From IMG/VR virus record IMGVR_UViG_3300024323_000009, positions 1 to 53,162 of that record: a DNA stretch of 53,162 nucleotides, one strand, 5' to 3'. The first letter of the stretch is position 1. Each line of letters begins with the position of its first letter. A model generated the notes under the pieces. That model saw nothing but the letters and a program-made list of their open reading frames with translations, ran no database searches and had not been told where the DNA came from. A program made the position numbers and the translations under genes. This document shows positions 64-50,511 of this stretch, piece by piece. Origin of the DNA: a virus.

Positions 64-141
64 GCGCGTATCACTTTTGGGCCGTCCCTATTGCCTCAAA
101 TGGGTGTCCGGGGGTTTGAGCCGCGAAATCCCCTTTGTCAA

Positions 142-157
142 GCATTTTCCGTGCCAT
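142..157 (-). promoter_or_regulatory. Candidate sigma54 (-24/-12) promoter, leftward
   Basis: The minus strand reads TGGCACGGAAAATGCT. This is the -24 element TGGCAC, five bases, then ATGC, with the GG and GC dinucleotides correctly spaced. It differs from consensus TTGC only at the first T of the -12 box. It shares TGGCACG and TGCT with the sites at 9656-9671 and 45845-45864. It points off the contig, towards the leftward arm if the ends join. Confidence 0.4.
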
Positions 158-1064: not shown

Positions 1065-2099
1065 GTCACTACTCCCAATCGCTTCCGGCGTTGTCAGGTT
1101 ACCTACTTCCCCATGCTTGCTAGTAATCCCTATGCGCTAGCTAGCAGACCCATACGTGAGCTAGTAGAAAGCTAGTGTTGCTTTGCGATAAATCGTAAAT
1201 CCTTTTCAGCCAGCATATCCGCCAGTGTTGGCATTTACCCTTCAGGTTACCTATTTGCCCCATCCTGCTAGTCCTACTCCGATCACTCTCCTAGCGAGTC
1301 GCTATCTCCTGCTAGCTTGCTCAAAAACTAGGAGTAGTAAGTAGTGGCATCTGACTAAGATCATAATGGTAAGTGTTTAAGTTTAAAAAGACCCCCCACA
1401 CCGTGTATATTAGAATATATAATTTATATACATTATAGTTGTTTACTGGCGTTTAACCCGTAAATTCTCGCAAACACTTCACGGGCACCCCTTAAACACT
1501 CCGCTCGTTCAATGGCGTTTATCGGAGACCTACAACGACACCCTTGCTACTCGACACCTAGTGCTAGCTAGCAATCCTTATCGTCTTTGTAGTGACACAA
1601 GCGCAACTAAAGACTAGCACTATTCCGACGTGTATAAATAAATACAGCTAACATCACACTCGCGTTTAATTGTTGCGCTTATCTTACGAGTTGACTAATG
1701 ACATTTACTACTCATTACTAACAAGCATCACGCTGTTACTAATAACGTCGCTAGTTAGCGGCAGATAATTAAACGCCGTTTATCCCACCGTGCTAGTCAT
1801 CACGCCAGTTACTACTCCACCGCTAGTTATTACCATAGCTAATCATGTGCTATTACTAGGGAGGGGTAGCCCCCAGAAACATTTTTGCTGGCCCGAACCA
1901 TCATACTCTCTCGAAACGCTAATTTTCGAGTATTCGAGGTTCTTAATGATAGCAACTAGCTACTCGATACTATTACCCAGATGTTGGCATAAGAAATGCT
2001 CTGTTAGATAGTGATTTATGGATACTAGTTTGTGGAGCACATCTAATAATGGTAACGGATGGAGTATAACTTCACAGAGAATTGTGGCGGAGAGTGGTT
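1065..2099. other. Long non-coding region, CTAG-rich with short repeats
   Basis: No convincing gene is visible across about 1 kb. It holds 19 CTAG tetranucleotides between 1081 and 2040, where about four are expected. The palindrome GCTAGCTAGC occurs twice (1136-1145 and 1563-1572). A GCTAG[T/C]AATCC[C/T]TAT repeat occurs near 1119 and 1567. Four copies of a GCGTTTA-type element occur (1448-1460, 1514-1525, 1661-1672 and, as CGCCGTTTAT, 1774-1783). A very AT-rich stretch lies at about 1400-1435. Repeats plus an AT-rich block in the largest gene-free region suggest a replication origin, packaging site or control region. I found no tRNA. Confidence 0.6.
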
Positions 2100-2618: not shown

Positions 2619-3056
2619 ATGGGCTTCGACAGCAGACAGATACTAGAGCTAGGCAAGCAAGGGTTAAATGCCGAGGAGATAGCTGCCGCTTTGGGGTATG
2701 ATGTAGAGCTAGTCACTACTGTCTTGACGAAGGGGGCGGAAGTTCCGGCCCTAGCTGATACTACTCTCGAAAAGCCTAAAGCTAGAGGGATGATGTTTGA
2801 TGATAGTATGGAGCAACTCGCAGTTGCGACGGTGAAGGATATTCTATTAGATACAGAAGTGAAAGCACAAACACGTCTTAATGCGGCTCGAACTGTCATC
2901 GAGGAACGCAAGGGCCTACTAGAACCCAAAGTCGCTACTAACGTCACTTTCAATATCATGGACTTTAACGAACGGTTGCAGCAGATGCGCCGACGGCGGG
3001 AGGAATTGGAGAGGGTGATAGATGTGCAGGGAGATACTAAATTGGTAGCTGCATGA
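2619..3056 (+). CDS. terS: Putative terminase small subunit
   Basis: The protein has 145 residues. Residues about 5-37 look like a helix-turn-helix (QILELGKQGLNAEEIAAALG), followed by a helical oligomerisation region and a charged coiled coil near 105-135 (RLQQMRRRREELERV). This is the usual TerS layout of N-terminal DNA-binding HTH plus central helices, and the gene lies one small gene upstream of TerL. TerS recognises the packaging site and stimulates the TerL ATPase. The start follows TAGTAGT-ATG, and the stop overlaps the next start as ATGA. The assignment rests on architecture and position. Confidence 0.7.
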   Translation: MGFDSRQILELGKQGLNAEEIAAALGYDVELVTTVLTKGAEVPALADTTLEKPKARGMMFDDSMEQLAVATVKDILLDTEVKAQTRLNAARTVIEERKGLLEPKVATNVTFNIMDFNERLQQMRRRREELERVIDVQGDTKLVAA

Positions 3057-3349
3057 ACACAAGAACATTCATCAAATCACTGCTAGTCGGCGCTATCGCA
3101 CCTTCGGTATTTTTGCCGAAAGCTAGTGACTCGTTTAAGTGGAAACGCACGGCTAGTGGAATCTATGTTGTTAGTGACGTTGACAAATTTCAAAGACTTC
3201 CTTATTACTTAACCAAGGTTGAATTAGAGCATTTTCCCAGCTGGAATAGTTTTGAAATGTTGTATGGAACCAATATCTGGAAACCAGATATGGGTGATAC
3301 TAAAAGAGCAATTACTATTCGCTCCGATTTTTACGCTTCTGGATTCTAG
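3053..3349 (+). CDS. Partial duplicate of the MCP N-terminal arm
   Basis: This is a 98-residue protein. Residues 42-88 align without gaps to residues 18-64 of the major capsid protein (9817-11097). I count 28 identities in 47, including the shared FQ.LP.YL, FP.WN.F, LYG and MG.T.RA motifs. The first 41 residues are different: a hydrophobic stretch at 7-22 resembles a signal or membrane segment, followed by FKWKRTASGIYVV. After the homologous block the protein ends within ten residues. Its start overlaps the TerS stop (ATGA). The DNA is visibly more AT-rich and uses different codons from the MCP gene, so it is not a recent local copy. It could be a remnant of another phage's capsid gene or a working MCP-arm mimic. 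Confidence 0.8.
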   Translation: MNTRTFIKSLLVGAIAPSVFLPKASDSFKWKRTASGIYVVSDVDKFQRLPYYLTKVELEHFPSWNSFEMLYGTNIWKPDMGDTKRAITIRSDFYASGF

Positions 3350-8135: not shown

Positions 8136-8416
8136 AACAGCTACCACCACAACTAGCTACTCCTGAGAACATTGAACTCGTAGCTCTCCACGAAAAGTGG
8201 CTCCAATCACCAGTAGCAGCGAAGGTGCGACAATTACTAGACCACTGGGTTACTAACTACACTAACTTTGCTGCTACTGGTTCAGTTACTTCTGAAATAT
8301 CAGCCGAATCTGTTCGCATACGCGCGGCACAACTTCACACACTCCTAAAACTCCGAGACACACTATATGACACTGAACGCTTCATCACAGAGATTGCTAG
8401 ACCCCACACCAGTTGA
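8132..8416 (+). CDS. Small helical protein
   Basis: This 94-residue, mostly helical protein starts at GTG overlapping the previous TGA. Its 3' end overlaps the scaffold start by 50 bases. Small proteins just upstream of the scaffold gene are common in podoviruses. No function can be read from the sequence. Confidence 0.6.
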   Translation: MKQLPPQLATPENIELVALHEKWLQSPVAAKVRQLLDHWVTNYTNFAATGSVTSEISAESVRIRAAQLHTLLKLRDTLYDTERFITEIARPHTS

Positions 8417-9635
8417 GGGCGGGAATGGTGGCACTACCACTACTACGGAGCCTCCGGCTTCTGCTACCACACTCACTCCTGACCAACAGAAGATAGCCTC
8501 GGCAGTTGAGAAGGTAGCAGCAGCGGAGCCATCACCAGCGCCACGAACTAGCACTACGCCTAAGATCACCAAGCCACTAGTACCCACAGGTGTTCCAGAC
8601 GATGTGTTGAAGATCAACTTTGGGATGGATGATAATGATGTTTTGTCCACACTTGAACAGGAGCAAGAGGTTCCAGTTAAGAAGGAGGGTGAGAAGAAAG
8701 TAGAGCCGAAGGTTGAGGCTAAAGTCGAGCCAAAGAAAGATGAAAAAGCTCCCACCGAAGATGGTATCATTCGGCCCAAAGCCGCGCAACAGCGCCAACA
8801 GCAACAGCAACAGCAACCCGACTCGCGTGACTATAACGGATTCGATGCTGAGACAGTTGCCGCGTTGAAGAGGATGCCGAACGAGTCGTATAACGTAGTG
8901 CATAAGCAGTTGCGAGAGTTCGAGCAGTTGAAACAACAGAAGGTGGGTAGTTACTTGCAGCATCCACAAGCTTATACTTTGAGTCCCGAGTATGCTCAAG
9001 CGTCGGCAATGGTAGGACAAGCTGAATACGAGATACAGCATTACGAACAGCAATTACTAAATATCCGCGCCGGTAAAGACTGGACTGTCCTCACTGGCTT
9101 CGATCAGAAGACTGGTCAACCAATAGTATCTCCGGCGCAGAAAGCTAGTGACGAGTCGGATATACGAGTAGCGAACACCCTCTCTCAACTCTCGCAACAA
9201 GCCGAACAGTTCCGGCGTCAACGCTCTGATATAACCGCGAACTTCCAGAAGCGTATTGAAGCCGAGAACCAGATGATTAACCAAGTCAGGGCGCAACGGT
9301 TCGGATGGGTAGCTGACCCCAAAACTCTTGATGATACTGTCGAGGTTGTGATTAAGGGTACTCCTACTCCCATTCCTATCAAGCAGGTCATCGCTGACTT
9401 TAAGAACTTATTCCCTCCTCACCATCACGCATCACCTATCCTCGATGTTGCTGCTGATATGTTCGTAGCTATGCAGATCAAAGAACAGGAGAACCGCGAA
9501 CTACGAAGTAAGACCGAGACTCAATCGCGGTTGCGAGAAGACTCGGACGCTGCTGAGATTAACGTCGAGACTGCTAGTAACGGAGCACCTAATAAGGGTG
9601 AGACTGTGTTTGATATGGCAGGGTTGGAGGACTAG
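8367..9635 (+). CDS. Putative scaffolding protein
   Basis: This 422-residue, highly charged, low-complexity protein lies directly before the capsid gene. A Thr/Pro/Ala-rich N-terminus (1-70) is followed by a Lys/Glu-rich stretch (about 98-125), a Gln run (around 140-150), then long coiled-coil helices (about 160-330) and a helical C-terminus. Scaffolds usually combine acidic coiled coils with a basic capsid-binding end. It would assemble MCP into the procapsid. No protease motif is visible. Confidence 0.75.
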   Translation: MTLNASSQRLLDPTPVEGGNGGTTTTTEPPASATTLTPDQQKIASAVEKVAAAEPSPAPRTSTTPKITKPLVPTGVPDDVLKINFGMDDNDVLSTLEQEQEVPVKKEGEKKVEPKVEAKVEPKKDEKAPTEDGIIRPKAAQQRQQQQQQQPDSRDYNGFDAETVAALKRMPNESYNVVHKQLREFEQLKQQKVGSYLQHPQAYTLSPEYAQASAMVGQAEYEIQHYEQQLLNIRAGKDWTVLTGFDQKTGQPIVSPAQKASDESDIRVANTLSQLSQQAEQFRRQRSDITANFQKRIEAENQMINQVRAQRFGWVADPKTLDDTVEVVIKGTPTPIPIKQVIADFKNLFPPHHHASPILDVAADMFVAMQIKEQENRELRSKTETQSRLREDSDAAEINVETASNGAPNKGETVFDMAGLED

Positions 9636-9655
9636 CATTGCTAGTAACTCAGTCT

Positions 9656-9671
9656 TGGCACGAATCTTGCT
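9656..9671 (+). promoter_or_regulatory. Consensus sigma54 promoter of the capsid unit
   Basis: TGGCACGAATCTTGCT matches the sigma54 (RpoN) consensus TGGCAC-N5-TTGC exactly, including invariant GG (9657-9658) and GC (9669-9670). Transcription would start near 9681, leaving a leader of about 135 bases before the MCP ATG. It lies in the 181-base gap between scaffold and MCP. A terminator at 11679-11716 closes the unit after one further gene. The phage encodes its own sigma54-activator ATPase (46504-47376), which makes chance occurrence less likely. Confidence 0.8.
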
Positions 9672-9699
9672 AATACCCAAGTAGTTCGGCGCTCGACGC

Positions 9700-9800
9700 C
9701 ATTGCTTCTAGTCGTAGTAAGGGCATACTACATTGCTTCTGAAGTAGAAGGGCATCTACAGCGATAACAGGCTGTCTGTTATACTGTCAGATAACTTTTT
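9700..9800 (+). promoter_or_regulatory. Structured 5' leader of the MCP mRNA
   Basis: Two imperfect tandem copies of ATTGCTTCT...GGGCAT..CTAC lie at 9701-9731 and 9732-9759. They are followed by ATAACAG (9764-9770) pairing with CTGTTAT (9776-9782). A competing stem pairs GTTAT (9778-9782) with ATAAC (9791-9795) and is followed directly by TTTTT (9796-9800). The two stems share bases and cannot form together. Stability, attenuation or activator binding are possible roles. Confidence 0.45.
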
Positions 9801-9816
9801 ACAACAGGACAATTAA

Positions 9817-11097
9817 ATGCCAAATTACTATGAGCAGCCTGCTTCCTTCGCTAATGCGATTGTGGAAGATAAGGACCGCTTCCAGAAACTTCCCTTCTAT
9901 CTCGTCAAAAACGAACTCGAAGTGTTCCCACGCTGGAATATCTTCGATCAACTCTATGGTAACATCTCATGGGAACCCAACATGGGTAACACCATGCGAG
10001 CAGTTACGCCGCAGAAAAGCCCAGTAGCTAACTCATTCGCGTTCCCTAACAATATCGACGTTCTCCCTAATAAGAACGTCTATCAGGTTACGGAGTCGAG
10101 CGAAGACGCGAGAGTAAAGGCGCAGCGGTTCGAGTCACAGCAATTCTCGTTTGTTCCCTACTTCACGTCGTTCTGGCGCGATCACTTACAGTTTGCGAAC
10201 CGTGATATTGCGACGCAGATTCAGAACTATAACAATCAGTTCATACGAACGAATATGCTGGCGAAGAGCAACTATGCTTATATCGCCGGTAAGGGACTCA
10301 TCGGGCAAGCTCCTACTGCGGACCTTGGCACTGTTACTACGGATGCGAATGGTAACACGTTGACAGCAGCCGCAAACTCTAAGACCTCCGCATGGTTCGC
10401 TGCACAAGCCGCACTCATTAAGAACAATCTCTCGCTCCGGGATGTGTATAACGCGATGCTCAGCCATACGGAAGACCTCGCTGCTCCACCGTTCGATGGC
10501 GTGAAGAATATGCCTACTGACAATGAAGGACTGAAAGGGAAGTATGTCATTGTTGGTAGCACAGAAGCGTGGGCAGCATTTCCCTACGACCCTGATACTA
10601 ATCTCCTCAAGAGCTTGGAACAGAATATCCTGTTCAAAGACTTCACTGGGCTGTTGTTCGGCAAGGTGACGTGGAAGTTTGACCGCTATCCTCTGCGGTT
10701 CGATGCTACTGGCGCATTCATTGCTCCCGAAGCGTATGATGACACGGTGAAGAAGTGCATTCCTAATCCGAACTACACTTCGTTGCTCACTGCACCCTAC
10801 GAAATCGCATGGATGCTCGGACAAGACGCCTGCAAGACGATCAAAGTCGGACCTCCACCGAAAGAGTTCGCTGCTACTAGCATGGCTGCGAAGAAGTTCT
10901 ACTCTCTCAAGTGGAATGGTGAGATTCAGCTTACCGATCAAGTGTTGATTACCTACGCGGATGGCACTACTGACCTCAACACCTACGGCACTCAGTTGAA
11001 GTTCATCTCGCAATGCACTCACGGCTACCTTACTGGTGAGCCTCGCTATGCGTTCCCCATTCTGTTCAAGCGCGCTCGTCCGGCGTTGGCAGTCTAA
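9817..11097 (+). CDS. Major capsid protein
   Basis: This 426-residue protein has the size, position (after scaffold) and promoter strength expected of the capsid protein, probably with an HK97-type fold. Residues 1-65 form an extended arm containing FQKLPFYL and LYGNISWEPNMGNTMRA, the part duplicated in the 3053-3349 gene. The C-terminal half contains NYTSLLTAPYEIAWMLGQ (about 316-333) and ends in a strand-rich domain. The ATG follows ACAACAGGACAATTAA. The next gene is cotranscribed, and a terminator follows it. I assign it by context and family features, not a database match. Confidence 0.88.
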   Translation: MPNYYEQPASFANAIVEDKDRFQKLPFYLVKNELEVFPRWNIFDQLYGNISWEPNMGNTMRAVTPQKSPVANSFAFPNNIDVLPNKNVYQVTESSEDARVKAQRFESQQFSFVPYFTSFWRDHLQFANRDIATQIQNYNNQFIRTNMLAKSNYAYIAGKGLIGQAPTADLGTVTTDANGNTLTAAANSKTSAWFAAQAALIKNNLSLRDVYNAMLSHTEDLAAPPFDGVKNMPTDNEGLKGKYVIVGSTEAWAAFPYDPDTNLLKSLEQNILFKDFTGLLFGKVTWKFDRYPLRFDATGAFIAPEAYDDTVKKCIPNPNYTSLLTAPYEIAWMLGQDACKTIKVGPPPKEFAATSMAAKKFYSLKWNGEIQLTDQVLITYADGTTDLNTYGTQLKFISQCTHGYLTGEPRYAFPILFKRARPALAV

Positions 11098-11138: not shown

Positions 11139-11660
11139 ATGAAAAAACTTATCGCTATTATCGCACTCCTTGGAGCGTCACTTGCATCCTATGGAGCTTC
11201 CACCACCATCAACACTCCCGCAGGTGTTACTCCTACCATCTTGGTGAGTAACTCTTGTAGGAGTGTCCAGTTCATCATCTCAAACACGAACTTGATCGCT
11301 AATGCGTATCATACGTTCTTCGATGCACCGGCAGTTACGACAACAACTACACCAGCAACAGCAGGTGCGGCGATTACCAATGTGCTCGCTAGCTATACCT
11401 ATGTGTCGTTGACGTTCTCGCACATTACGAACGTATACACTTACTACACTGGCGTAGCTCAAACTACGAACGTGCAGTATGATGCATGGACTCACACGAC
11501 TAATACCGTGGCACAGACAACAAATGGTTATCCGGCGTTGTTAACCCTAGTAGTGCCTACCAACTCCACACTGACGATTGACTTCAATCAGCGTTGGATT
11601 AACGGCATTCTCAATACTAACTCTGGGGCAGGTAGTGTAACTACCGTCTTCACCCAGTAA
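11139..11660 (+). CDS. Secreted-type protein in the capsid unit
   Basis: This 173-residue protein has a clear Sec signal: MKK, a hydrophobic core (4-16), then a likely cleavage after ASYGA. The mature part is Thr/Asn-rich and beta-predicted, with many TN pairs. It lies between MCP and a strong terminator and so shares the sigma54 promoter. A decoration protein would be expected here, yet a signal peptide implies export to the periplasm. Roles in envelope modification or lysis, or a retained N-terminal helix, are alternatives. Confidence 0.8.
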   Translation: MKKLIAIIALLGASLASYGASTTINTPAGVTPTILVSNSCRSVQFIISNTNLIANAYHTFFDAPAVTTTTTPATAGAAITNVLASYTYVSLTFSHITNVYTYYTGVAQTTNVQYDAWTHTTNTVAQTTNGYPALLTLVVPTNSTLTIDFNQRWINGILNTNSGAGSVTTVFTQ

Positions 11661-11678
11661 GGAGGGGCTTGGTTTGGG

Positions 11679-11716
11679 GGCACTCACTGACACCTTGTAG
11701 TTGGTGAGTGCCTTTT
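11679..11716 (+). terminator. Terminator after the capsid unit
   Basis: GGCACTCAC (11679-11687) pairs perfectly with GTGAGTGCC (11704-11712) across a 16-base loop and is followed by TTTTCTCCTTT. An outer AAGGAG/CTCCTT pairing (11659-11664 with 11717-11722) can extend the structure. It delimits the MCP transcription unit. Confidence 0.8.
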
Positions 11717-21321: not shown

Positions 21322-22464
21322 ATGGGAGACTACGGCGGTTCAGCACCCAGCTACGGCGAGTATATGAATGCCCTCAGTAATTACTATACTGGGGACATTG
21401 GAAGCTATTCGCAGTCGGTCAACAATGCGTCGCAGCAGAACGATTTGAGTAACTTGGGTATCTCGAACCTACTCACGCAAGGATACTCGAATATAGGGTT
21501 GCAGAACCTTACTAACTATGCAATGCCCTACAATCAGATAGGACAGCAGATTGAGAATAGTAATGCACAAGCAGGTGCGAATACTAACCTCGCGCAGATT
21601 AGCGGTGCAGGTGGGCAAGTGTCTAGAGTGGCGAACCAGTTAGAGCAGCAGGTTAACCCAGAGTACTATCAAATACGCGGCGCAGCGGGTAATCAGGCGA
21701 CCAATCTCGTCAATAGCATCAATCTGAATGGATTGAGTGGTGGTGAACAAGCAGCAGTGGAGCGTTCATTAGCACAGAGCAATTATGCTAGTGGGAACTT
21801 GGGACTAGATAATGCTACTAATGCCGTATCGAACGCAATGAACTTTGGTGACTACTTGAATACGAAGCGGACGGCACTTAGTAATGCGTTGAACACTGCC
21901 TCTACTACGATGAATGCGGTGAATAATACGTCGTGGAACCCTGTATCAACAGCGTTGTCGCAGCCTGATAGTAGCACTCAGAGCAACTGGGGAACGTCGC
22001 AGTTCGCCGGAACTACTAAGGCATCCGGCACCAATGAGAATACTACCTCATCGGATTTAATGTCTAGCATATCGTCGTTACTAGGTTCTCAGATGGGTTA
22101 TCAGTATTCCGCGAACGCTAGTAACTCTTTCGGCGGCATCTTGAGCAGTCAAACCTCGTCAATAGGTGACGTTTGCTGCTTCATCTTTCTCGAAGCTTAT
22201 CATGGTACGTTGCCGTGGTGGGTTAGGGAGTGCCGAGACTATTATTATCGTGAGTGTCCGCAGCTAGCTTCCGGGTATCGCCGCATGGCGAAGTGGCTAG
22301 TGCCGATTATGCGGCACTCACGATTAGTTCGTGGACTGGTGTGGCATGTTATGGTGAAGCCGATTACAGAGTATGGGAAGTGGATGGTTGGACTATCCGC
22401 TAAAGCGAGTGGTCGTGCTAGTCGTAACTTCTGGTTCCGAGTGTGGAGCTACTTAGGGCGATGA
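21322..22464 (+). CDS. Internal virion protein with Cys-rich C-terminal domain
   Basis: This 380-residue protein's residues 1-275 are Asn/Gln/Ser-rich and helical, typical of internal or ejection proteins. From about 281 the composition changes abruptly to a basic, aromatic domain starting DVCCFIFLEAYHGTLPWWVR. It resembles the CFI-box C-terminal domain seen at the ends of diverse secreted or phage proteins (recalled, not searched). The stop overlaps the glycosyltransferase start (ATGA), suggesting coupled expression. Confidence 0.7.
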   Translation: MGDYGGSAPSYGEYMNALSNYYTGDIGSYSQSVNNASQQNDLSNLGISNLLTQGYSNIGLQNLTNYAMPYNQIGQQIENSNAQAGANTNLAQISGAGGQVSRVANQLEQQVNPEYYQIRGAAGNQATNLVNSINLNGLSGGEQAAVERSLAQSNYASGNLGLDNATNAVSNAMNFGDYLNTKRTALSNALNTASTTMNAVNNTSWNPVSTALSQPDSSTQSNWGTSQFAGTTKASGTNENTTSSDLMSSISSLLGSQMGYQYSANASNSFGGILSSQTSSIGDVCCFIFLEAYHGTLPWWVRECRDYYYRECPQLASGYRRMAKWLVPIMRHSRLVRGLVWHVMVKPITEYGKWMVGLSAKASGRASRNFWFRVWSYLGR

Positions 22465-23249
22465 CTGTCGTAGCTCTAGTATCAGTTCCAGAAGGTGCCG
22501 ACTTCGATGTTTGCACGTTAGCATTCTCGTCGCTACGAGTTGGCTTTCCCTCTGCGACAATTAAAGTGTATGATAATGGTAATGGCGAGGAAGTTACTAG
22601 TAGGTTGAAGCCTCTCGCAGACAGTATCGGCGCTGAACTCCATAGGTGTATCGAACCAAAACACCACGCTGATTGGATTAGCCTCATGGTTAGGATGCAC
22701 GATGGACCACTACGAGTAGTAGATACTGATACTATCTGGTGGGAGAGCTGTGAAGGATTCGATTTCGATTCTCCGCTAGCAGGCCGGTTCGTTCCTACTA
22801 TGTGGAATGAGTTCTCTCAGTGTCCGTCGTTTGCTCGCTTACATACGTCATTCATGTGGATACGTGATTGTGCAGAGTTATGCAACCGCATCAGGGAAGC
22901 GTATCCTCCAGCGCATTCGGCGTGCGGAGAGTATTGTCCATGCAACCCATTCCTACCAGCAGTTGGCTTCGTAGGTGGTAAGCCAGTGTTTTGGGATTCT
23001 ACTGCGATGCTCTACAATATGATAGGTGGTGCTCATTTCGAGCCGAAGCATTTGGAGTGCTATACGCATGTGAATTCGGCGTCGTTCTATAAAGTAATGC
23101 TCGAACGAGTAGAGAACAAGACAGCTTTCGCACGACAACATGAGCTAGCTAAGTATGAACCCGAGAAGCTTCGAGGATTCTGGCGTGCCGAGGACCGTTA
23201 CTATGCCGAGATGAATCGGCGATATTTGGAAGGAGTTAATAAGCAATAA
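22461..23249 (+). CDS. Putative glycosyltransferase (GT-A type)
   Basis: This 262-residue protein starts at the ATG overlapping the previous TGA. An N-terminal Rossmann-like start (MTVVALVSVPEG) and VYDNGNG fit GT-A enzymes, as does the DxD motif in RVVDTDTIWW (D88, D90), which usually binds metal and nucleotide sugar. Several Cys residues lie at about 140-165. Its place among ejection protein genes is odd. It may modify virion proteins, host surface or DNA. Confidence 0.6.
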   Translation: MTVVALVSVPEGADFDVCTLAFSSLRVGFPSATIKVYDNGNGEEVTSRLKPLADSIGAELHRCIEPKHHADWISLMVRMHDGPLRVVDTDTIWWESCEGFDFDSPLAGRFVPTMWNEFSQCPSFARLHTSFMWIRDCAELCNRIREAYPPAHSACGEYCPCNPFLPAVGFVGGKPVFWDSTAMLYNMIGGAHFEPKHLECYTHVNSASFYKVMLERVENKTAFARQHELAKYEPEKLRGFWRAEDRYYAEMNRRYLEGVNKQ

Positions 23250-23250
23250 T

Positions 23251-24888
23251 ATGGCTAGAAAGAAAAGCGGACACCACACAACGGCATTGGGGTTATTGGC
23301 TGGAACAGGACTAACTTCTATGTTGGGCGGCGATTCTACGCCTGACCCCAATGAGGCATATGGTTCTGAGAATCTTGCGGATGCTAACAGCACAAACCCA
23401 TTATATCTGGATAGTCAGGGTAATGATGTTAGCAGTGCCGCGCAGAAGTATGGAACGAAGAACCGTTATGTAGAGCCAACTGCGGGTCAACGGATGTTTA
23501 GACCGGCGTTGGCACAGCAGATTGACACTCTCAACACTAAGTATATCGATCAACCTCTAGCAGCTCAACAGCAAGAGCAAACTACACAGGACATACTTCG
23601 TCCGAAGGTTAGAGCGGTGATGGAACATGCTGCGAAGGTATCAGGTGGTGATCCGTCGAAGATCAGCAATGAAGATGTGGATGCGATGGTATTGCAACAT
23701 GGAGCAGAGGCTAGTAATAATGCGCTTTCGACGGGAGTGTTGAATACTGAAAGACTTAATCAAACCTTGTCTAAACTAGGAACACCAGAACGAGAAGCTT
23801 CACTGCAAGATTATACTACACGAACGGCACATGAAAAAGCTGCAAAGGATTACTATGCTGGACTAGGAGGCGCTCAATCTGACGAAGCTTTAGCGCAAGC
23901 TAGATATGGAAGTGCATTGGCGGGTGGGAGATTGAATATACTACCATTAACACTAGGAGCCGAAGCTTCTCAGGCAGCTTACGGGAGTGCTCTCAATGAC
24001 GCAAGATTGCCGTACGCTGGCAATGCTGCTAGTGCAGAAAATGCAGCAAACATACTTAGTACGGCACAAAGTAATGCAGAACTTCCCAATGTTAGTCGTA
24101 AGGCTCTAGCAAGTGGACTGATTGCTGACTATACAGGCACTAACACTAAGGACGAAATAGCAAATCTACCACTATCAAACGCTGCTCGTCAAGCCGAAGC
24201 ACAACGAGCGATTGTCAATGCTAGAACTATAAATCCCGGTCCTGATAATCCGAACATGAGGATGATAAATGAGAATGGAACAATATCGTCCGCTCCTAAT
24301 CTCTATTATAGTCCTTCGATGTTGAATAAGATGGGAACTATGCAGCAGTTTGGACAGCAGTATGGTGGCCAGAATACCCAAGGTGGAACAGCGATATTAC
24401 CGAATGGTTCGGCGGTAGTAGGGTTGCCTCGTAAAGCACAGACTATTCCGGCGCTCTCTGTACTTCCTATCTCGTCAGCTACTAGCACTAATGCGTCGGC
24501 TCCTCCTATCACTCAGTTCGCCTCTCAGCCCTCTAACTATGGATTAACTACTCCATATCCGACAGTCACGCCATCGAGTAGTCCAGCGGTGACTCCTACA
24601 CTCTCGTCACCTCCTACCGCTACATCGCCGGGTTACTATTCTCCACAGACGACACTACCTACTAGTAGCATGGGGCCAACTTCGCTGACGACTGGGCAGA
24701 GTGCGTTGCCACAAGGAATGCAACAGGCTATTCAAAGCAATCAGGCAATACGAGATGATAGGATTAAGTCGCTCCTCGACCGGCAGAAGAAGTATCCTAT
24801 CTATATGAAGTATAATGGTGAGGCTGAGGAACTGCAAAACTTGTTGCAGCAACAGCACCTACAACAGATCATGGATAACTCCCAGTAA
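23251..24888 (+). CDS. Internal virion (ejection) protein
   Basis: This 545-residue, low-complexity protein has a short Gly-rich hydrophobic stretch near 12-26 (LGLLAGTGLTSMLGG), long helical Ala/Gln-rich segments (60-330), a Pro/Thr/Ser-rich linker (395-480) and a charged helical tail. Internal proteins ejected with DNA look like this and lie here in podovirus genomes. No enzyme motif is visible. Confidence 0.7.
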   Translation: MARKKSGHHTTALGLLAGTGLTSMLGGDSTPDPNEAYGSENLADANSTNPLYLDSQGNDVSSAAQKYGTKNRYVEPTAGQRMFRPALAQQIDTLNTKYIDQPLAAQQQEQTTQDILRPKVRAVMEHAAKVSGGDPSKISNEDVDAMVLQHGAEASNNALSTGVLNTERLNQTLSKLGTPEREASLQDYTTRTAHEKAAKDYYAGLGGAQSDEALAQARYGSALAGGRLNILPLTLGAEASQAAYGSALNDARLPYAGNAASAENAANILSTAQSNAELPNVSRKALASGLIADYTGTNTKDEIANLPLSNAARQAEAQRAIVNARTINPGPDNPNMRMINENGTISSAPNLYYSPSMLNKMGTMQQFGQQYGGQNTQGGTAILPNGSAVVGLPRKAQTIPALSVLPISSATSTNASAPPITQFASQPSNYGLTTPYPTVTPSSSPAVTPTLSSPPTATSPGYYSPQTTLPTSSMGPTSLTTGQSALPQGMQQAIQSNQAIRDDRIKSLLDRQKKYPIYMKYNGEAEELQNLLQQQHLQQIMDNSQ

Positions 24889-24899: not shown

Positions 24900-27800
24900 A
24901 TGCCTATCAAACGTCAGTTGACAGATGAGGAATTGGCAGAGTTAGATCGTCAAGGGTATGATGTGTCACAGGTGCCGAAGGATGGAGTGACGGTATTATC
25001 GCCAGAGGAGCAGCAACAACAGGCACTCAAGGCACAAGGAGAGCAGCAGGGACAACTCGGCGCTGTCGGCGCTACTCTCAAGGGACATGCTGGTTCTCTC
25101 ATAGGTGGTGGTGCAGGGGCATTAACAGCTGGTGCAGTAGTGCCAGCTATTGCCGCATCATGGGCAGGTGGGCCGGTTACTGGCATACCGGGAACATTGC
25201 TAGGACTAGGTGCGATGGCGGCGGGTGGATTAGCTGGGTCTTATGCTGGCCAAAAAGCACAAGAGGCGATATTGCCGCAAGCGACGAATCAACAGTTACA
25301 GCAGGCAGCAGTGGCAGCACAGGCAGCGTATCCAAAGACAGCACTAGCTACTGATGTGGGTGCTGGAGCACTACTAAGTGGTGGCAGACCATCATTGACA
25401 GTTCCGAGTCTAGCAGGTAGTGGACTTAAGAAGATATTGACTCAAGGCATAGCTTCACAGTTACTCCCACAAGAAGCTAGTGCGATACGTAACGTGGTGA
25501 CTATGAACGCGGCGAATCTAGGTGTGAATGCCGGATTGCAGGCTGCGACGACTGGGAAGGTGGACCCCACTGAGCTTGCTGCGTCAGGACTAGCAGGAGT
25601 TGCGTTCTCACAACCTAACTTCCTTGGTCGAAAACTGTTGAAGTGGGAACCGCTATCACGAAGTGCCGCACCACAAGCTGAGACTCAAGCGACTCCTTAT
25701 ACTATTGAGGATGGTCAGATACAAACTGTGGAGCAACGTCAAGCGAGGCAGAAGCAGCAGGGCAACGAGGATTGGCAGCGCCAGCAACTAGAGACGCAGC
25801 AGGCGAATGAGTATTCGGCGCAACAGGCTGCACAACTAGAAGCGCAACAACAGCAACAGAGAGATGCCGCTGAGTATCGCCAAGCGAACTGGAAGTCCCT
25901 CTCTCCGGCTCAACCTGCTAATAAGGACGGGACTCCTAACTATATGGTAGGCGATCAGGGAGTGAAGAGGGCGTGGTTGAAGCGCAACTCGGAGCCGGTT
26001 CCTGATGATGCGGACGAGATTACCCGAGCATCGGTACAGGCGCGTAACAACCTCTTGAAGCAAACTCCTGTAAGTCAGATGCGCGACGAGATGTATGTGC
26101 AGGACTTGGCGACGAAAGACCCAGAGGGCTATCAGCAATATCAGCAACAGCAACAGGCTCAGATGCAACGCATCCAACAGATGCAACAAGATGTTGCTAG
26201 CCAGAATGCTAGAATAGCGAATCAGACAGAAGCGCAGAAGCAAGCGTTGGCACAACAGCAAGCGCAGGCTAAAGCGCAACAGGTGCAGGCTCAACAGCAA
26301 CTCGCGGCACGTCAGAAGCGTCACGATGATTTCGTAGCAGCATTCCAACGCGATCAACAGGCACAACGTCAGATAGAGGCGGAACAGCTTAGACAGCAGA
26401 TACTAGGGAGGGGTTTGGAGCAACGTAGCGCGGCGACTGGCACCGCCGAGATGCAAGCGAAAGCTGCGAGAGAGGCAGCATTTGCACAAGCGGAGCGAGA
26501 GGGTGAGGCTGCTAGACAGCGTGCGCTAGAGATAGAAGAGCAGCAGCGCCGAGATGAAGGGGATACACGCTATCAAGGTGTTACTCCCGGCGACAAAGAA
26601 GTATCTAGAGCTACTCCCGAACTCCTCGGAGAAGCCGCGAAACGAGCTACGACTATCGGCCAACTACAGCCAGAAGATCGCTTAACTATCCCAGAGACTG
26701 GCGGCGAGGCGAGAGGAGCGGCGAGGATAGGGGAGCGGTTGATCTTGCTATCAAGGATGGCGACGAAGGATACCGGCTATCACGAACTCCTACACCAGAC
26801 ATTGAGTGATATGGACAAGAGTGGCGATAGGTATATGATGGAACTCGCTGGGAGGATGCGCCGAGTCCATGCGGGAGAGGAGCAACTAGCGCAACAGGGT
26901 GGAGAGCAATACCAGCAGCAAGTCGAAGGTCGTAGGAATATGATGGCGAAGGCAGGCTCTACACTCAAAGATGTCTATGCTGCGTTATCGGCGCGATTGG
27001 GGACGGAGAATCCGGGCCTTTTGAGGAGGAACCTAATCGCTATCGCTAGAGGGGCGAGTGGGCCGGAGACACCATTGATAGCGAAAGCTAGTGCAGCAAT
27101 AGGCGGAAAAGGAATCATACACTATAATACTAATGATGACTTCAAACGCTACAATGAGTTAGTATCCAAAATCCGAACCGCTCAATTATCTGAAAGACCT
27201 TCTATCTGGAAAGAACTAGAAGAGATTAAGAACCGCAATGGTGGAATGCCACCACAAGGTGTTCATATTGATGGCTCTAACGGTACTAAGTATCAAGGTG
27301 TTGAACCTGAACAACAGCGTAGAGTGGCTGGAGCTAATGTTAATCGTGCTCTAGGACTACTCGGCGCTTCTATGTATGATAAGAACTATTCTCAAACTGC
27401 GGTTAAAGAGATGGTTCAGAATGCTTTTGATGCGGTTAAAGGAGTCAATGAACCAACTATTCGACTACACTTGGAAGAGAGTGGTGGAGAGACTATAGGA
27501 GTTTCTGATAATGGTCGTGGAATGACTCCAGAGATAGTGTTGACTAAGCTTCTTCCAGCATTTGAGAGCGGCAAAGAAAGCACAGAAAGTGCTGGCGGCT
27601 ATGGATTAGCGAAAGTTGCACTTTTTAGTGGTGCTGATGACTTTAGAGTAGTGACAGTTGCAGAACATCAAGGGCAGAAGTTGCAGACAGAGGTGAATGG
27701 TGATGGCAAAGCATGGCTAGACTTCGTGAATCATGGTGCTGATTTGCCACTTGACCTGAACCAACCGGGCAGACATACACTCGACAGCAAGGGTGATTTA

Positions 27801-30800
27801 GAAGTGTGGGTTAAGCCTGTGGATGCTGAGACTACTACTGGCACTAAGATGGAAATTACTCCGTCGAAGAATTACGACAAGTATGACGCTAGAAAAGTAT
27901 TCAAAAACATCGCCAAGAACGAGCCGGGAACCATCAAGTTCTTAGATGAATATGGTACAGAGATTAAGCCAGATGCGGCAGCTTTAGCACCGGCACAGCA
28001 TACAGTTATAACTAAGGGTGCAGAAGTAAAAGTTCACTATGATCCCAGTGAATCTCCAGAACGTCAATGGGGTTTTCCAGTGATGAATAATGGATTGGTT
28101 CAATTCGACTACCCTTTCTACGAAGATGTTAAACTACCTTCGATTAAAATTAACGTCAACCCTACAGTGGACGTAATGAATCCAGAGTATCCGTTCACCA
28201 ACAATCGTGATGCTTTGAAAGGTGAGTCTAGGCAAGCAGTTGAGAATATCTTGAAGAATATGTCTCAACAATATAAGCAGAAAGTGCTAGATGTATTTCA
28301 GTCTCGCATGAATGATACTACTAAAATCGAAGGCTCTCGACAGAGATTCCTCGATGTTAGTGGTAGAATGAAGCCGGAAGATGTTACTGAGATAGCCACG
28401 GATAAGAGGATACAGGACTTGAATAAAGCATTGAGTAGAGTTCATACTGCTGCATTCAAATATCTCAACCGGCGTTTTGGTGATTTCTGGTCTAATGCTA
28501 GATACAAAGGTTTTGCCAATGGTGGAGGTTTCAAAGGTGTGCGATTTGGAGTGCCAGAGAAGGGTAAGAAAGGGGAAATTTATTATGACTTACAGCACGT
28601 ATTCAATGATGGGATACAAGCATTTCGAGATGGTAAGTATGGACCAGCAGAGATGAATAAAGCGGTTGGTGAAAGTTTAGCAGGTGTAGTATTACATGAG
28701 ATTTCGCACCAGGTTTCACACTCCGAAGGTGAAGGTCATGCTATAGCAATGACTGACCTCGCTGGTCCAATGGCTGAATACATTCGTAAATCAATCCGAG
28801 CAGTAGAAAAAACATTCACACACGATAGTGATATATTAAACTTCTATGAATGGTACAGAGATAAAATTAAAAATACGGAACTCGCAGCAGATGAGGCGCG
28901 TGATTTCATTCGCCAAGGTCAACGCGGCGAACCAACAGGACAAATCTTCTCAGCAACTAATAGAGAAGCTAGCACCAGAACTAGTGAAGCAGGCGGAGAA
29001 ACCAAGTTTCAGCCAGTAGATATTGGTGATGTGTTAGAGCCACAAGAAGGACGATTAGGGAAGCAGGGCTATTACCACCTCCGCGATGAACGCCTACAAG
29101 CCTCGTCGGTTCACATTACTGACGACAAGATTCATGTCATTAACTTGCAAGTGCCACAAGAGAAACAAGGTAAAGGTATCGGCTCCGAAGTGCTCGGCAA
29201 ACTCAAAGGACTCTCCGACTCTATCGGTAAGCCTATCGAATTGATAGCACACCCCGATAGTGAAAAGCAACAGGAACAGTTGAACCGATTCTATGAGCGT
29301 AACGGATTCACAAAGCTAGAAGGCGACGATCGGAAGTTTAGCTATTTTCCACCAGCATCTAGTATGAAGTATCAACCCGTAGCTGGCCATCCTGAGGACG
29401 AATCACCAGTAGCGAAGGAGGCGTCGTTGAAGCTTACGCAATCGGCGATTGACCGCATTCGTAGTATTCCGGCGAAGATAGCACCGGAGCTAGGTGATGC
29501 GTTCCAGCAGACTCTAGCGAAGAAGCAGAACCTCCTTGGGCAGTGGTGGAACAAAGCGGCATACGCTATTAATAAGCTCTCGACTAACGAGCAGGCGACG
29601 TTACAAGATGTACTCTATAACGAGCGTGATAGTAGGCAGAAGATGTTTGTTCCACAGAAGCTGCGCGAGGCTTATGGCGCGATTCGGCAGGCATATCTCG
29701 ATAGCGCCGAACACCAACGTGCTATCAATGAACCCATCCAAGAGAGTGATGGCACTATGCGTCCTATCGAAGTGGACCCCTTCTACCATGCGACTACGAT
29801 GGAGCCGAAGGTAGCAGATGTGTTTCGGCAGGGGACGGATAAGGCTGAGGAGCAGCGGTTGACGGACATCTTTGTGCAACACCAACTCCGGCATATTGAC
29901 CCGAAGATCACTGACCCTGAGCAACGACTCGCGATTGCACATAGTAACCTCAAAGATATTATCGCGTCACTGCGCGGCTCCGCCAAGTTCGACACCGGCG
30001 ATCATAGCAACCAGACGTTCTATAATGCAGCGCGGAGAGCCGAGGGAATACTCCTTCCTAAAGAGTTCATGCGCCAAGATTTGAAGCGCAACCTACAAGT
30101 GTATTTCATGCGACGTGCAGCGGATAATGCTTATTATGAGCATATGGAGAGTCAGCCGAAGATAGCATCAGCGTTAGGTTATACTAAAGATGCGTGGGGT
30201 AACAAACTGCCGAAAGCTGACGAGTTACTATCGGGCAACGATCAAGTCCGTGCAGTAATGAACATGCTCAAGGGTGAGGGGATTACGAAGACGAGTATGC
30301 AGGAGCACGCGGTAGAGTCACTCGCGAGTGCAGTGATGCTAGGACCAACCACCGAAGGCCATAAGATAGTGGGTAGTCAAGCGATGGCGATGACCTACGC
30401 AGATAACCCAGTGGAAGCCGCGAAGATGTATCTGCACGCGATACGCAATCTTGGGAGTGGATGGGTTAATACTAAGAATGAGCCAACTGGTAGTTACGCA
30501 CACACGCTAGAGACTGGCTATCACGTCCTCGATAGTAAGTCGGCGCATGACATGCTCAATACTCACTTGACTGCTGCTGAACGACTCCGTGGGTTGACTA
30601 CTGGGATACGCGAGATTTATACTATTGGTGGGTTGACTGAACGGTTCAACAAGAGCATGTTGCAGGGGATGGCCGAATATCTCATACCCTCGAAACTAGC
30701 CGCAGCTAGGAATGGTGATGCCGGAGCTTTAGCACTAGTCCGGCATATAGACCCCTCCTTCACTCCCGACAAAGCTTATACTGACAAGCAACTCGTAGCA

Positions 30801-40538: not shown

Positions 40539-40787
40539 CTAGGTCGAACTAGGAACTGATGGAGTAAAGTTATGGATGATGCCGAGTGCAAAGCGACGGC
40601 GATGTTGGCACTCTTTGCCTTCTCGCCTAGCTCTAGCTACTGACTCACGATAAAAGTCACGGCGACTAGCTACCTTTGGAGTGAGTGTGAAGATAGCACT
40701 AGCTGGATACGCCTTTGCAGGTGGCTGAATAGTGGGGTTATACTTGTTATCCGGTTTCGCTGGTGGTTGTTCTTTAGTATCGTTCAT
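40539..40787 (-). CDS. Small basic protein
   Basis: This 82-residue protein has a Pro/Lys-rich N-terminus and a basic segment (RRDFYRESVARARREGKE). The start overlaps the upstream ATPase stop (ATGA) and follows AAAAACAAC. It may bind nucleic acid or partner with the ATPase. Confidence 0.55.
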   Translation of the reverse strand: MNDTKEQPPAKPDNKYNPTIQPPAKAYPASAIFTLTPKVASRRDFYRESVARARREGKECQHRRRFALGIIHNFTPSVPSST

Positions 40788-41461
40788 GTTGTTTTTGGTT
40801 CACCATTATAGTAACTCTTCGCTCTTGCAATCACTGCTGCTAAATCGTTCGGCACTAGTTGGTCAGTGAACATTTCTAGTGGAGTCTTCGCTGTCGTCGA
40901 ACCGTCCGTGTTCGTCTGAAACCAATACTCCATAGCTCCGGCTTTATTGCGTCGGGGTTCAGTGAACAACACCAGTAAGAACTCCTTCTCAATCTTGCCG
41001 CGTTGTTCCTTGCCATCTACTGCCATCATTCGCTTATTCGTAGTTGAGCCATCCACATTCACTAGTTCTACTATGTCGTCTATGCTAGTGACTGCTACGG
41101 CACACTTATCATTTTTGTATTGGTTGAGAGTAGCTTGGACCATCTTCGAGTATTGTCCGTAAATCTCAAATCCCTTGTAGCACTTTTGGCATAGCTCTTT
41201 GATCTGCTCGAAACGTTTAGTGAGTGAGTCTACTACAATCAACTCTACGTTAGGTGTCTTGAGTGCGAGTTGGAACTGTGAATCATGCTCGGCAGGATTA
41301 GCAAAGGGAAGGATTCGGAACTTATTTGAGCCACGAAAGGGGAACCCCTTACGTTCGCCGTCTAGTATCACAGTTGTATCAGGATTAAGATTTCGTAGCG
41401 AGGTACTCTTCCCAGACCCCGATGGTCCTACAATCGCGATTAGTGCCTTGTGTTCGGACAT
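40784..41461 (-). CDS. RecA-like AAA ATPase (Sak4-like)
   Basis: This 225-residue protein has a P-loop GPSGSGKST (12-20), then ILDGERKG and a Walker B strand ELIVVDSLT (about 73-81). This matches phage Sak4/AAA_24-type recombination ATPases, which load SSB-coated DNA for annealing or repair. It lies between the nuclease and SSB-like genes, consistent with a phage recombination module. Confidence 0.7.
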   Translation of the reverse strand: MSEHKALIAIVGPSGSGKSTSLRNLNPDTTVILDGERKGFPFRGSNKFRILPFANPAEHDSQFQLALKTPNVELIVVDSLTKRFEQIKELCQKCYKGFEIYGQYSKMVQATLNQYKNDKCAVAVTSIDDIVELVNVDGSTTNKRMMAVDGKEQRGKIEKEFLLVLFTEPRRNKAGAMEYWFQTNTDGSTTAKTPLEMFTDQLVPNDLAAVIARAKSYYNGEPKTT

Positions 41462-41532
41462 AGCTAGTAGATAGTGATGGTGTTGTTACTGTTTAACTGA
41501 GTGAAAACATAGAGCATTTTCTATGCCAACTT

Positions 41533-45192: not shown

Positions 45193-45774
45193 TTACGTAG
45201 TCGCAGTAGTCGCCTGTGCCGCAGCCGCAGCAGCTTCTCCCTGCGCCATTTCTGTCATTACCTTCTGCATCTTGAGCAGCAAGGCAACACCCTCTTGTAT
45301 CTTCGCCGGGTCTTTTGACTCCATCAGCTCGCGAGCTTGCTTGAACATCTGATTGGGCGAGAGTTCGCGCACGTCTGGACGCCAGCTAGCAGCTTCGTCC
45401 TGAGTGTAGAGGATGCCGTCTTTGAACTTCGCTAGTAACGTCTGTTGCAGTTGGATACCAGCAGCGACATTCTTAGTATCGAACTTTTCGGGGACGTTAT
45501 CATTCTTCACCTTCGTCCTGATACGAGCAGCGCCGACACTGGCCATCACTCCCATAATCGCTTCTTTGCCGAGCCGAGTTACCATAGTGTCGAAGTCGGA
45601 ATACACAGGAGAGTAGAACTTGAAGTTCTTGAGTGGGCCTTCGGAGATTTCGTTAAGCTCGAAGGTGATGGGAGCACCATTGGTAGCAGCGGGTGCTGCG
45701 GTAGTTGTAGTAGCAGCAGTGCCTCCACTATCTGCAACTGTGGGGTCAAGGAGGATGTTTCGATTATTATTCAT
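45193..45774 (-). CDS. Hypothetical protein behind a sigma54-type promoter
   Basis: This 193-residue protein has a Thr/Ala-rich N-terminus (1-35), a compact middle (FELNEISEGPLKNFKFYSPV) and an Ala/Gln-rich helical C-terminus. It appears to be a single-gene unit between a -24/-12 promoter (45845-45864) and tandem hairpins (45087-45172). If the sigma54 circuit controls late genes, this may be a virion or assembly protein despite its location. Family unknown. Confidence 0.75.
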   Translation of the reverse strand: MNNNRNILLDPTVADSGGTAATTTTAAPAATNGAPITFELNEISEGPLKNFKFYSPVYSDFDTMVTRLGKEAIMGVMASVGAARIRTKVKNDNVPEKFDTKNVAAGIQLQQTLLAKFKDGILYTQDEAASWRPDVRELSPNQMFKQARELMESKDPAKIQEGVALLLKMQKVMTEMAQGEAAAAAAQATTATT

Positions 45775-45844: not shown

Positions 45845-45864
45845 TTAAGCAGGAATCGTGCCAA
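45845..45864 (-). promoter_or_regulatory. Sigma54-type promoter, leftward
   Basis: The minus strand reads TTGGCACGATTCCTGCTTAA. This is TGGCAC, five bases, then CTGC, one mismatch from TGGCAC-N5-TTGC, with GG (45862-45861) and GC (45850-45849) in place. It closely resembles the MCP promoter (TTGGCACGAATCTTGCT). It lies in the gap of about 125 bases before the 45193-45774 gene. Confidence 0.65.
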
Positions 45865-46269: not shown

Positions 46270-46507
46270 TTTCTTTTCTGTAGTTTAGAATTTGGTTAAG
46301 CTCATCAATGAACATGCGACCTTTATCACACTTGGCACACAAGAAGTAATGCCGAACTTTGTTGGTAGGATTTATTCCTACAGATTCTATGGCGCTTCTT
46401 TCAACTTCGTATCCATTTAGTTCGCGTTTAGCATCTACCAAATCTTGTTCCACTTCACTAGTCGGTATGTGATTAACTTTGTTTATCTGTTCTACTGTTA
46501 GTGTCAT
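46232..46507 (-). CDS. Hypothetical protein
   Basis: This 91-residue protein is helical (EVEQDLVDAKRELNGYEVER) with one CAKC pair and a basic tail. Its start overlaps the activator ATPase stop (ATGA), so the two are coupled. It may modulate the activator, but that rests on position only. Confidence 0.55.
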   Translation of the reverse strand: MTLTVEQINKVNHIPTSEVEQDLVDAKRELNGYEVERSAIESVGINPTNKVRHYFLCAKCDKGRMFIDELNQILNYRKENENTKQHQSTKL

Positions 46508-47376
46508 TGTATATCCTCCACCGTTATCGCCTCTACCCCTAACACTTCGATGCGGAGCGCAAGGTTAAGGAGTTGCCGCACATTACCCGGCAACACTTTT
46601 TCTGGCGGGACAGTCTTAACTAGCTCTAGTATTCTAGTATAAGCAACACTATTAACTAGTAGTTTGCAGTCATCCATTTTCTCGCGGAGAGGCTTCACTT
46701 TCAATTCAAATACTGATAGCCTCTGATACAAGTCTAGTCTAAAAGTAGGAGGGTCTAACTTAGACATGGCTTTCAAGTCTTTATGTGTTGCAGCCACAAT
46801 GCGACACAATAATTGTTCATCCGTATTACCACCAACCTTGCGAAAGGTTCTATTGTTAATTGTGCGTAATAGCTTTACTTGCAAATCGGCAGGCATATCA
46901 CCTACCTCGTCTAGAAAAAGTGTGCCTCCTTCGGCTTGTTTGATAAGGCCATTACGTTCTCTCTCTGCTCCTGTGAAAGCACCTCTAGTATGGCCGAATA
47001 GTTCACTCTCGAATAATAGTGGACTGACAGCACACACATTGACGCCGACTAGTTGACCTCTACGTTCTCCATGTAGTATGTTAGCGAGCAGTTCTTTACC
47101 TACTCCACTGTCGCCTAAGATAAGAACAGGCTCTTCTCTAGGGGCTAGTTTAATAGTTTGCTCCTTCACTTTGATAGTGTCAGCGTCGTTAGTCTTGAAC
47201 GCTCTCGCTGCCTTCCACGCTGCTATTCGCCAAGGGTTGATGATGCCGGAGGCTACTGCGCCGGACATGAGAGCTACACTAGGTGACTTCTCCTTCTCTA
47301 GTAGTGTGGCCCATATCTCGGCTTGTTGCTCAATAGTGAGTTCGCTAGTGGAGGGTGCTATTTTTTGTTCACTCAT
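46504..47376 (-). CDS. Sigma54-activator AAA+ ATPase without DNA-binding domain
   Basis: This 290-residue protein is a bacterial enhancer-binding protein-type ATPase. It has Walker A GDSGVGKE (88-95), ESELFGHTRGAFTGA with the sigma54-contacting GAFTGA loop at 132-137, Walker B GGTLFLDEVGDMP (150-162; D156, E157), FRLDLYQRL with arginine-finger candidates R213/R219, and sensor II LPGNVRQL (R267). It uses ATP to remodel the closed RNA polymerase-sigma54 complex. A short N-terminal region (1-75) carries no recognised regulatory domain. The protein ends just after the AAA+ lid with no C-terminal helix-turn-helix, so it may act from solution. It starts one base after the upstream stop (TAA-T-ATG). 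Confidence 0.9.
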   Translation of the reverse strand: MSEQKIAPSTSELTIEQQAEIWATLLEKEKSPSVALMSGAVASGIINPWRIAAWKAARAFKTNDADTIKVKEQTIKLAPREEPVLILGDSGVGKELLANILHGERRGQLVGVNVCAVSPLLFESELFGHTRGAFTGAERERNGLIKQAEGGTLFLDEVGDMPADLQVKLLRTINNRTFRKVGGNTDEQLLCRIVAATHKDLKAMSKLDPPTFRLDLYQRLSVFELKVKPLREKMDDCKLLVNSVAYTRILELVKTVPPEKVLPGNVRQLLNLALRIEVLGVEAITVEDIQ

Positions 47377-47609: not shown

Positions 47610-48509
47610 CTAAGCCTGTATCACATCCGTCGTCGCCCACTCCCGTAGGAGTCGCCGGAACTCGGCTAGCATCCTAGTGGGGTCATCTTGGTTCAATGAC
47701 GAAATCCAGATGGGGTTGAGGTTGGAGTCGAAAGGTAGGGTTACGGTGGAATGGGATAGCATGATAGGTATGCCATAACAACCATAGTTTTCAAATCCTA
47801 GTTGTTTACGCTCTTCTGTAGGATACATTTCTTCTATAACAAGACCTAGTCTTCGACACATATAAGAAGAGCATAATGCTATGGCTAACTTGTTAGTGTC
47901 GAATAACTCTCCAAACTCCTTCACCTTAATATATGTAACACACCTCATACCACTACCTTCACATGGTGATACTGTATAGACTTCTGTTGAATATCCACAT
48001 TGTTCCATATGCTCTATCATCAGATAGGTATAAGCTCCGCGATAGAAGAATGCGTTTTCGTCCATGTCTGAGTTATTACGAATGTTACAATAGATACTCT
48101 GCACCTTATTGCCTCGCTTCGTATCTCCACCATCTATCGGCACTTGTTCCGCGATAAACGTCTCCGGCGTCGCACCACTTAGATGCGCGGCAACGTCTAT
48201 CACTCCACCCGCTATCTGATGACGTAGCTCCGGCTTATACTCTGTAACTGGCATCACACAGTCGAATAGGTCTGGGGGTAGTGTGCGTTGTAGCTCGCGT
48301 ATCTTAGCGATACCTACTGGCCAGCCGTCGTGACAATAACGCAGAGCTTGTTGTAGAGAAGCGCCGGCCCAATCGTCATACTCGGAGTATAGTGACAAGT
48401 AGCTACGTGGCTCCGTTCGCTCTCCGTGTTCCACTTGATCTACGAACTCCGACCATGAGTGGAATATATGGGTATATTGTGAGGGAGTGGAGTAGTGTTG
48501 GCCTTTCAT
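47610..48509 (-). CDS. DUF7192-like phage protein, ATPase partner
   Basis: This 299-residue protein starts at the ATG overlapping the MoxR-like gene's TGA. It contains HIFHSWSEFVDQVEHGERT and LQQALRYCHDGWPVGIAKI, a pattern I recall from the phage DUF7192 family, and an Asp/Ser-containing middle (NNSDMDENAFFYRGAYTYLM). Genes paired with MoxR-like ATPases often encode VWA-type partners. Whether this has that fold is unproven. Confidence 0.5.
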   Translation of the reverse strand: MKGQHYSTPSQYTHIFHSWSEFVDQVEHGERTEPRSYLSLYSEYDDWAGASLQQALRYCHDGWPVGIAKIRELQRTLPPDLFDCVMPVTEYKPELRHQIAGGVIDVAAHLSGATPETFIAEQVPIDGGDTKRGNKVQSIYCNIRNNSDMDENAFFYRGAYTYLMIEHMEQCGYSTEVYTVSPCEGSGMRCVTYIKVKEFGELFDTNKLAIALCSSYMCRRLGLVIEEMYPTEERKQLGFENYGCYGIPIMLSHSTVTLPFDSNLNPIWISSLNQDDPTRMLAEFRRLLREWATTDVIQA

Positions 48510-50323: not shown

Positions 50324-50325
50324 AA

Positions 50326-50511
50326 CTACTCCTTTACTCGCCAAGGTTCTAGTGCTGCTTCAATGCGATCAGCTAACGATAAGCTGACATTGTATAGTTT
50401 AGCTCGTTCGATTGTAATAGCTGGTAGAGCATCCCTTGCTTCTAGCAATAGTTTAGCTTGCTCTATCACTATCTTCTCTAACTCTTCATGTGTTAAGTCT
50501 GCTATTTTCAT
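50326..50511 (-). CDS. Small helical protein
   Basis: This 61-residue helical protein contains MKIADLTHEELEKIVIEQAK. The leader AATAGAACAACACCGAT precedes its ATG. It is tightly linked to the MoxR-like ATPase gene. Function unknown. Confidence 0.6.
   Translation of the reverse strand: MKIADLTHEELEKIVIEQAKLLLEARDALPAITIERAKLYNVSLSLADRIEAALEPWRVKE

Follow-up and report, generated by a model that had tools for sequence, protein, structure and literature searches.

Which sigma factor transcribes the capsid gene of this phage? The viral record analysed here (IMGVR_UViG_3300024323_000009, 53,162 nucleotides in full; hereafter the window) carries a sequence resembling a sigma54 promoter in the 181-b gap between the stop of a scaffold-like ORF (9635) and the capsid ATG (9817). 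Positions 9656-9670 on the plus strand read TGGCACGAATCTTGC and are followed by a T at 9671; extended by one base upstream, the stretch TTGGCACGAATCTTGCT (9655-9671, plus strand) meets the sigma54 consensus YTGGCACG-N4-TTGCW, with GG-N10-GC. The perfect match to TGGCAC-N5-TTGC before the capsid gene, pointed out in a preliminary description, is indeed exact, and it is the sole such match within the 53,162 b, as compared to about 0.09 expected. When up to two mismatches were allowed, the window contained 71 matches versus 43 ± 6 in shuffled sequences. From the usual sigma54 geometry, which places the start about 12 nt past the GC element, transcription is predicted to begin near 9682 (Table 1).

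Table 1. Coordinates of the promoter sites, genes and RNA elements discussed in the text, as positions in the window
Feature	Position	Strand	Remarks
Sigma54-like site TGGCACGGAAAATGCT	141..156	-	Near contig end, facing outwards
Sigma54 site TGGCATAAGAAATGCT	1985..2000	+	Heads packaging/structural module; equivalent in 18/21 records
Scaffold-like gene	8367..9635	+	Named by position and composition; stops just before promoter; homologue in 20/20 relatives
Sigma54 (-24/-12) promoter TGGCACGAATCTTGCT	9656..9671	+	Ahead of capsid gene; start predicted at about 9682
Capsid mRNA leader, predicted start	9682..9816	+	Sigma54 geometry; fold z -3.7
Leader unit 1	9704..9731	+	GCTTCT box 9704-9709; hairpin GTAGTA-agggca-TACTAC 9714-9731
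Leader unit 2	9735..9759	+	GCTTCT box 9735-9740; hairpin GTAGA-agggca-TCTAC 9744-9759
Major capsid protein (MCP) gene	9817..11097	+	Structural match to HK97-fold capsids; 20/20 relatives
Second capsid-unit gene	11139..11660	+	173 aa, signal-like N-terminus
Intrinsic terminator closing capsid unit	11676..11715	+	16-bp stem and U tract
Sigma54 site TGGCATAGAAAATGCT	41513..41528	-	Ahead of Sak4-like gene 40784-41461
First gene past activator-proximal site, function unknown	45193..45774	-	13/20 relatives; no Pfam or PHROG match
Sigma54 site TGGCACGATTCCTGCT	45848..45863	-	Past activator, ahead of 45193-45774; equivalent in 20/20 records
Sigma54 activator, AAA+-only enhancer-binding protein	46504..47376	-	GAFTGA loop, no HTH; PF00158; 19/20 relatives

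The first relative was a single close MCP match; a search with the activator described below yielded 54 viral contigs, and an MCP profile built from ten activator-bearing phages yielded 31 loci. The set used for comparison comprised 21 IMG/VR records including the window (0.92 Mb), taken in full or nearly so. Intergenic DNA accounts for only 10% of the bases in these records, and within it the pattern TGGCAY-Nk-NTGC was found 66 times at k = 5 versus 17 times summed over twelve other spacings (k from 0 to 12); the 21 records are related, so that these and the following site counts do not represent independent events. Bases that the search pattern left free also agreed with the sigma54 consensus (G in 80% after TGGCAY, T in 97% after TGC), and the family consensus reads TTGGCAYG-N5-TGCT. 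At k = 5, the genomes of T7, N4, phiKMV and DP SC_2_H4 and 50 kb of Lak-C1 had 0-2 sites, with no peak. A chance match as the source of the capsid-gene site was ruled out by the exact-match expectation, the spacing control and the comparative positions. Coding or composition bias behind the excess of weak matches was likewise rejected, the excess in the family being intergenic and confined to N5.

The sites occupy recurrent positions. The capsid gene has a site 100-190 b ahead of it in 17 of the 21 records, and likewise in 21 of 30 loci selected by MCP, those without it belonging to one clade; poor conservation at this place had been named beforehand as the result that would speak against the promoter. 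Another heads the packaging and structural module 6.4-10 kb before MCP (18/21 records). In each of the 20 activator-bearing records, a site on the same strand as the activator follows the activator's stop by 3 b to 2 kb, and no record of the 20 has one within 3 kb upstream of the activator. Further along the same strand, by 4-10 kb, lies polA; a helicase-like gene, where found, is located upstream, and MCP is on the opposite strand. With several sigma54 sites per genome and an activator that belongs to the family's core genes, the initial proposal of a sigma54 promoter before the capsid gene was too modest in scale. We searched upstream of the sites for an enhancer (UAS) motif and found none that was convincing, the excess of k-mers being slight and clade-limited; this fits an activator that has no HTH, though it is not positive evidence. 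At the end of the contig, positions 1-34 form a long C-rich run that is possibly an assembly artefact.

The anticipated order of promoter, capsid gene, one further gene and terminator was borne out by the site at 9655-9671, the structural match of the MCP and the stem at 11676-11715. The 426-aa product of 9817-11097 had no Pfam or PHROG match. A capsid model built from 29 relatives matched HK97-fold capsids, best that of phage N4 (Foldseek E = 3e-6, for a low-confidence model with mean pLDDT of 54); an earlier fold from 10 sequences was of very low confidence, and using 29 sequences gave a better one that is still low. In 17 of the 21 records an equivalent terminator, its stem differing in sequence, stands after the capsid gene or after the gene that follows it. 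Terminase, portal and scaffold genes were named from their order and size. A 98-aa ORF at 3053-3349 (plus strand), which lies between the putative genes for the small and large terminase, carries a divergent version of the MCP N-terminus, with about 51% identity.

Capsid transcription might be simple read-through from the upstream structural operon, with the pre-MCP promoter dispensable. This would suit the clade of G026, G029, G030 and G038, in which the MCP-proximal site is absent, the module-head site is kept in three of the four records, and the scaffold-like ORF extends as far as the hairpins described below and into them. Elsewhere the site before MCP persists despite diverged surroundings, and a terminator bounds the capsid unit, which makes read-through as the main source very unlikely. 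A sigma70-type promoter of the extended -10 kind could also be the main driver of the capsid gene, leaving the sigma54 site secondary, as the window has a TG-N-TATACT sequence (TGTTATACT, 9777-9785) some 35 b ahead of the capsid ATG. It has no -35 match, however, was unlisted by a consensus scan and, judged by eye, has no counterpart at this place in most relatives, unlike the sigma54 site; we regard this explanation as highly improbable.

Sigma54 absolutely needs an ATP-driven activator, and is therefore silent until one appears. That the phage makes its own activator had been predicted, and such a protein was found on the minus strand, where the product of 46504-47376 (290 aa) matched PF00158 with E = 6e-52 over 162 residues in a profile search and has intact Walker A (GDSGVGK), Walker B (FLDEV) and sigma54-contacting GAFTGA motifs, the loop being GSFTGA or GSYTGA in most relatives. 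FleQ, NtrC-family proteins, ZraR and PspF are among its nearest solved structures, and its domain is also matched by phrog_7998, a PHROG of unknown function. The protein stops right after the AAA+ domain: no match to a C-terminal Fis-type HTH was found, the activators of MCP-bearing relatives likewise being without one, and no known N-terminal sensor or regulatory domain was found in the window protein. A Fis-type HTH is usual but not universal in bacterial enhancer-binding proteins, so that its absence is no bar to membership. Just before the activator gene, 47610-50344 (minus strand) encodes a DUF7192 protein and an AAA_5 ATPase, a pair common to 5 of the 20 relatives.

Among the 20 relatives, the activator is missing only from a 22-kb fragment and is as much a core gene as TerL, portal, MCP and polA; all 11 MCP-selected records of at least 40 kb encode it. 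The pairwise distances of the activator are correlated with those of polA (r = 0.82), TerL (0.77) and MCP (0.59), as expected of a long-resident gene. A phage-encoded RpoN was sought in the window and in family members, and none was found. The single-subunit RNA polymerase profile PF00940 had no match in 10 records, but the control of that search was silent too; only two ORFs of the window exceed 700 aa, polA and one whose 2315-aa product has a GHKL ATPase domain (24900-31847, plus strand; HATPase_c_3 at 1e-8 and a RIIA-like PHROG, with a weak GNAT match). A search for the host with MCP against 84,980 genomes gave no match.

An activator without an HTH could fire host sigma54 promoters too, and its main role might be to turn on host genes, for takeover or auxiliary metabolism, rather than phage genes. 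We find this hard to accept, since promoters of the matching type stand at fixed positions in the phage sequence of all 20 activator-bearing records; any effect on the host may be a side effect. That the -24/-12 sites are read by another factor (a DNA-binding protein made by the phage, for instance, or a sigma factor so far unrecognised), their likeness to sigma54 being convergent, draws on the lack of a known function for most phage genes and is barely credible, since a sigma54 activator whose GAFTGA-type loop is intact is encoded alongside the sites and the consensus and spacing fit sigma54 at positions outside the search pattern. We estimate, with a probability of roughly 0.9 on sequence evidence, that 9656-9671 is the sigma54 promoter of a two-gene capsid unit and belongs to a phage-wide sigma54 regulon switched by the activator.

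The components closely resemble those of bacterial sigma54 promoters and of NtrC, PspF, FleQ and ZraR, with the same consensus, spacing, AAA+ domain, GAFTGA loop and Walker motifs. Unlike the bacterial enhancer-binding proteins, the activator described here is phage-encoded and has neither an HTH nor a known regulatory domain, and its putative regulon is the replication and structural programme of a phage. FlgR of Helicobacter and CtcC of Chlamydia are HTH-less activators, in which the central AAA+ domain works without a DNA-binding domain of its own; these proteins, however, have response-regulator receiver domains and partner kinases, whereas neither is seen for the phage activator.

Among phages, T7 and phiKMV share with the window the order of scaffold, promoter, capsid and terminator (scaffold, phi10, capsid and Tphi in T7). 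In the T7 record gene 1, encoding the RNA polymerase, ends at 5822 and phi1.1A lies at 5848, so that the first phage promoter directly follows the switch gene, like the activator-proximal sigma54 site. The T7 switch is a single-subunit RNA polymerase, whereas here it would be a sigma54 activator using the host RNA polymerase. Lambda Q and P2 Ogr are phage proteins that switch the host RNA polymerase to late genes. For T4 late genes this role of a phage-made activator of host RNA polymerase is filled by the gp45 clamp (PMC2988020). These three systems work with sigma70, a phage sigma or antitermination, and not by remodelling of sigma54. Xp10 P7 (PMC5053324) and T7 Ocr (PMC7064336) do act on the sigma54 holoenzyme, but inhibit it, whereas here sigma54 appears to serve phage genes; Gifsy-1 and RtcR provide an indirect link between phage and sigma54 (PMC9879122). 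We found no phage using sigma54 positively in the open-access papers of the PMC library. The parts are known; in the same literature we met no description of them serving as the early-to-late switch of a phage.

We also looked for precedents among cultured phages. The tblastn matches of the activator in the phage collection are, or resemble, bacterial chromosome fragments filed as phage, with the exception of MT121960 (faecal phage DP SC_2_H4_2017), which encodes an AAA-only activator with GAFTGA at 22340-23263 and has no N5 sigma54 sites; no precedent was retained. As MT121960 indicates, phage-borne sigma54 activators may extend beyond the present family. More distant sigma54-activator domains, several with C-terminal extensions, occur in a further group of putatively viral IMG/VR contigs (L047-L058).

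In the switch that we propose, an early operon running from the helicase-like gene through the activator would be read by host RNA polymerase with another sigma factor. The GAFTGA loop of the activator would contact the host sigma54 polymerase and drive open-complex formation. Since the protein has no DNA-binding domain and no known sensor domain, its action is probably from solution, with the timing set by when it is made. It would fire the promoter that immediately follows the activator gene, turning on replication genes, as well as the promoter heading the structural module, and the pre-MCP promoter would provide extra, terminator-bounded capsid mRNA for high output.

The predicted capsid mRNA leader carries a second conserved element, composed of two tandem hairpins whose AGGGCA loop is invariant and closed by an A-U pair, each preceded by a GCUWCU-type box. 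These hairpins were found in 30 of 30 MCP upstream regions, one of them (L096) with a single exact copy. Among 25 different hairpins, the inner three of the variable pairs formed without exception, by several pair types, with 50 double-change cells and a covariation score of 0.93 as compared to 0.15 ± 0.04 in shuffles. In the window the leader folds with a z of -3.7, hairpin 2 being missing from the minimum-energy structure. Rfam gave no match to the leader at the gathering cut-off, the only hit being a chance one to narK.

A loop that stays constant while the stems vary points to recognition of RNA rather than to a DNA operator. The hairpins are kept even in the clade that has no MCP-proximal promoter, and the element therefore probably acts on RNA, where it may well tune translation or stability. 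The hairpin loop might pair with the GCUWCU box as a pseudoknot; both elements are nearly invariant, and such pairing was judged unlikely on geometry. When the viral collection was scanned with the leader pattern only, ten loci had two real stems, and all ten had a sigma54 site just upstream; nine had MCP directly downstream, the tenth (L179) being the G002 record, whose MCP start had already been placed. One new contig retrieved by the RNA pattern alone (L178) encoded MCP, a sigma54 site and an activator (E = 5e-56), as predicted. In bacterial and archaeal genomes the pattern had 54 matches, none of them with both stems.

We consider it likely that these phages form a widespread tailed-phage family, seen in metagenomes only, in which an AAA+-only sigma54 activator takes the role of the T7 polymerase as the early-to-late switch, host sigma54 serves as the sigma factor of replication and late genes, and a new tandem-hairpin leader RNA regulates capsid output. 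Sigma54 would then be a ready-made, tight switch, with a clean change from early to late expression obtained from one gene of about 250-290 aa. Compact, constitutive sigma54 activators of this kind could be used as tools, and the capsid leader RNA would stand as a separate new element. Dependence on RpoN would limit the host range of such phages to bacteria that have rpoN, and would mean that phages can take over the second and unrelated branch of bacterial sigma factors to express their own genes.
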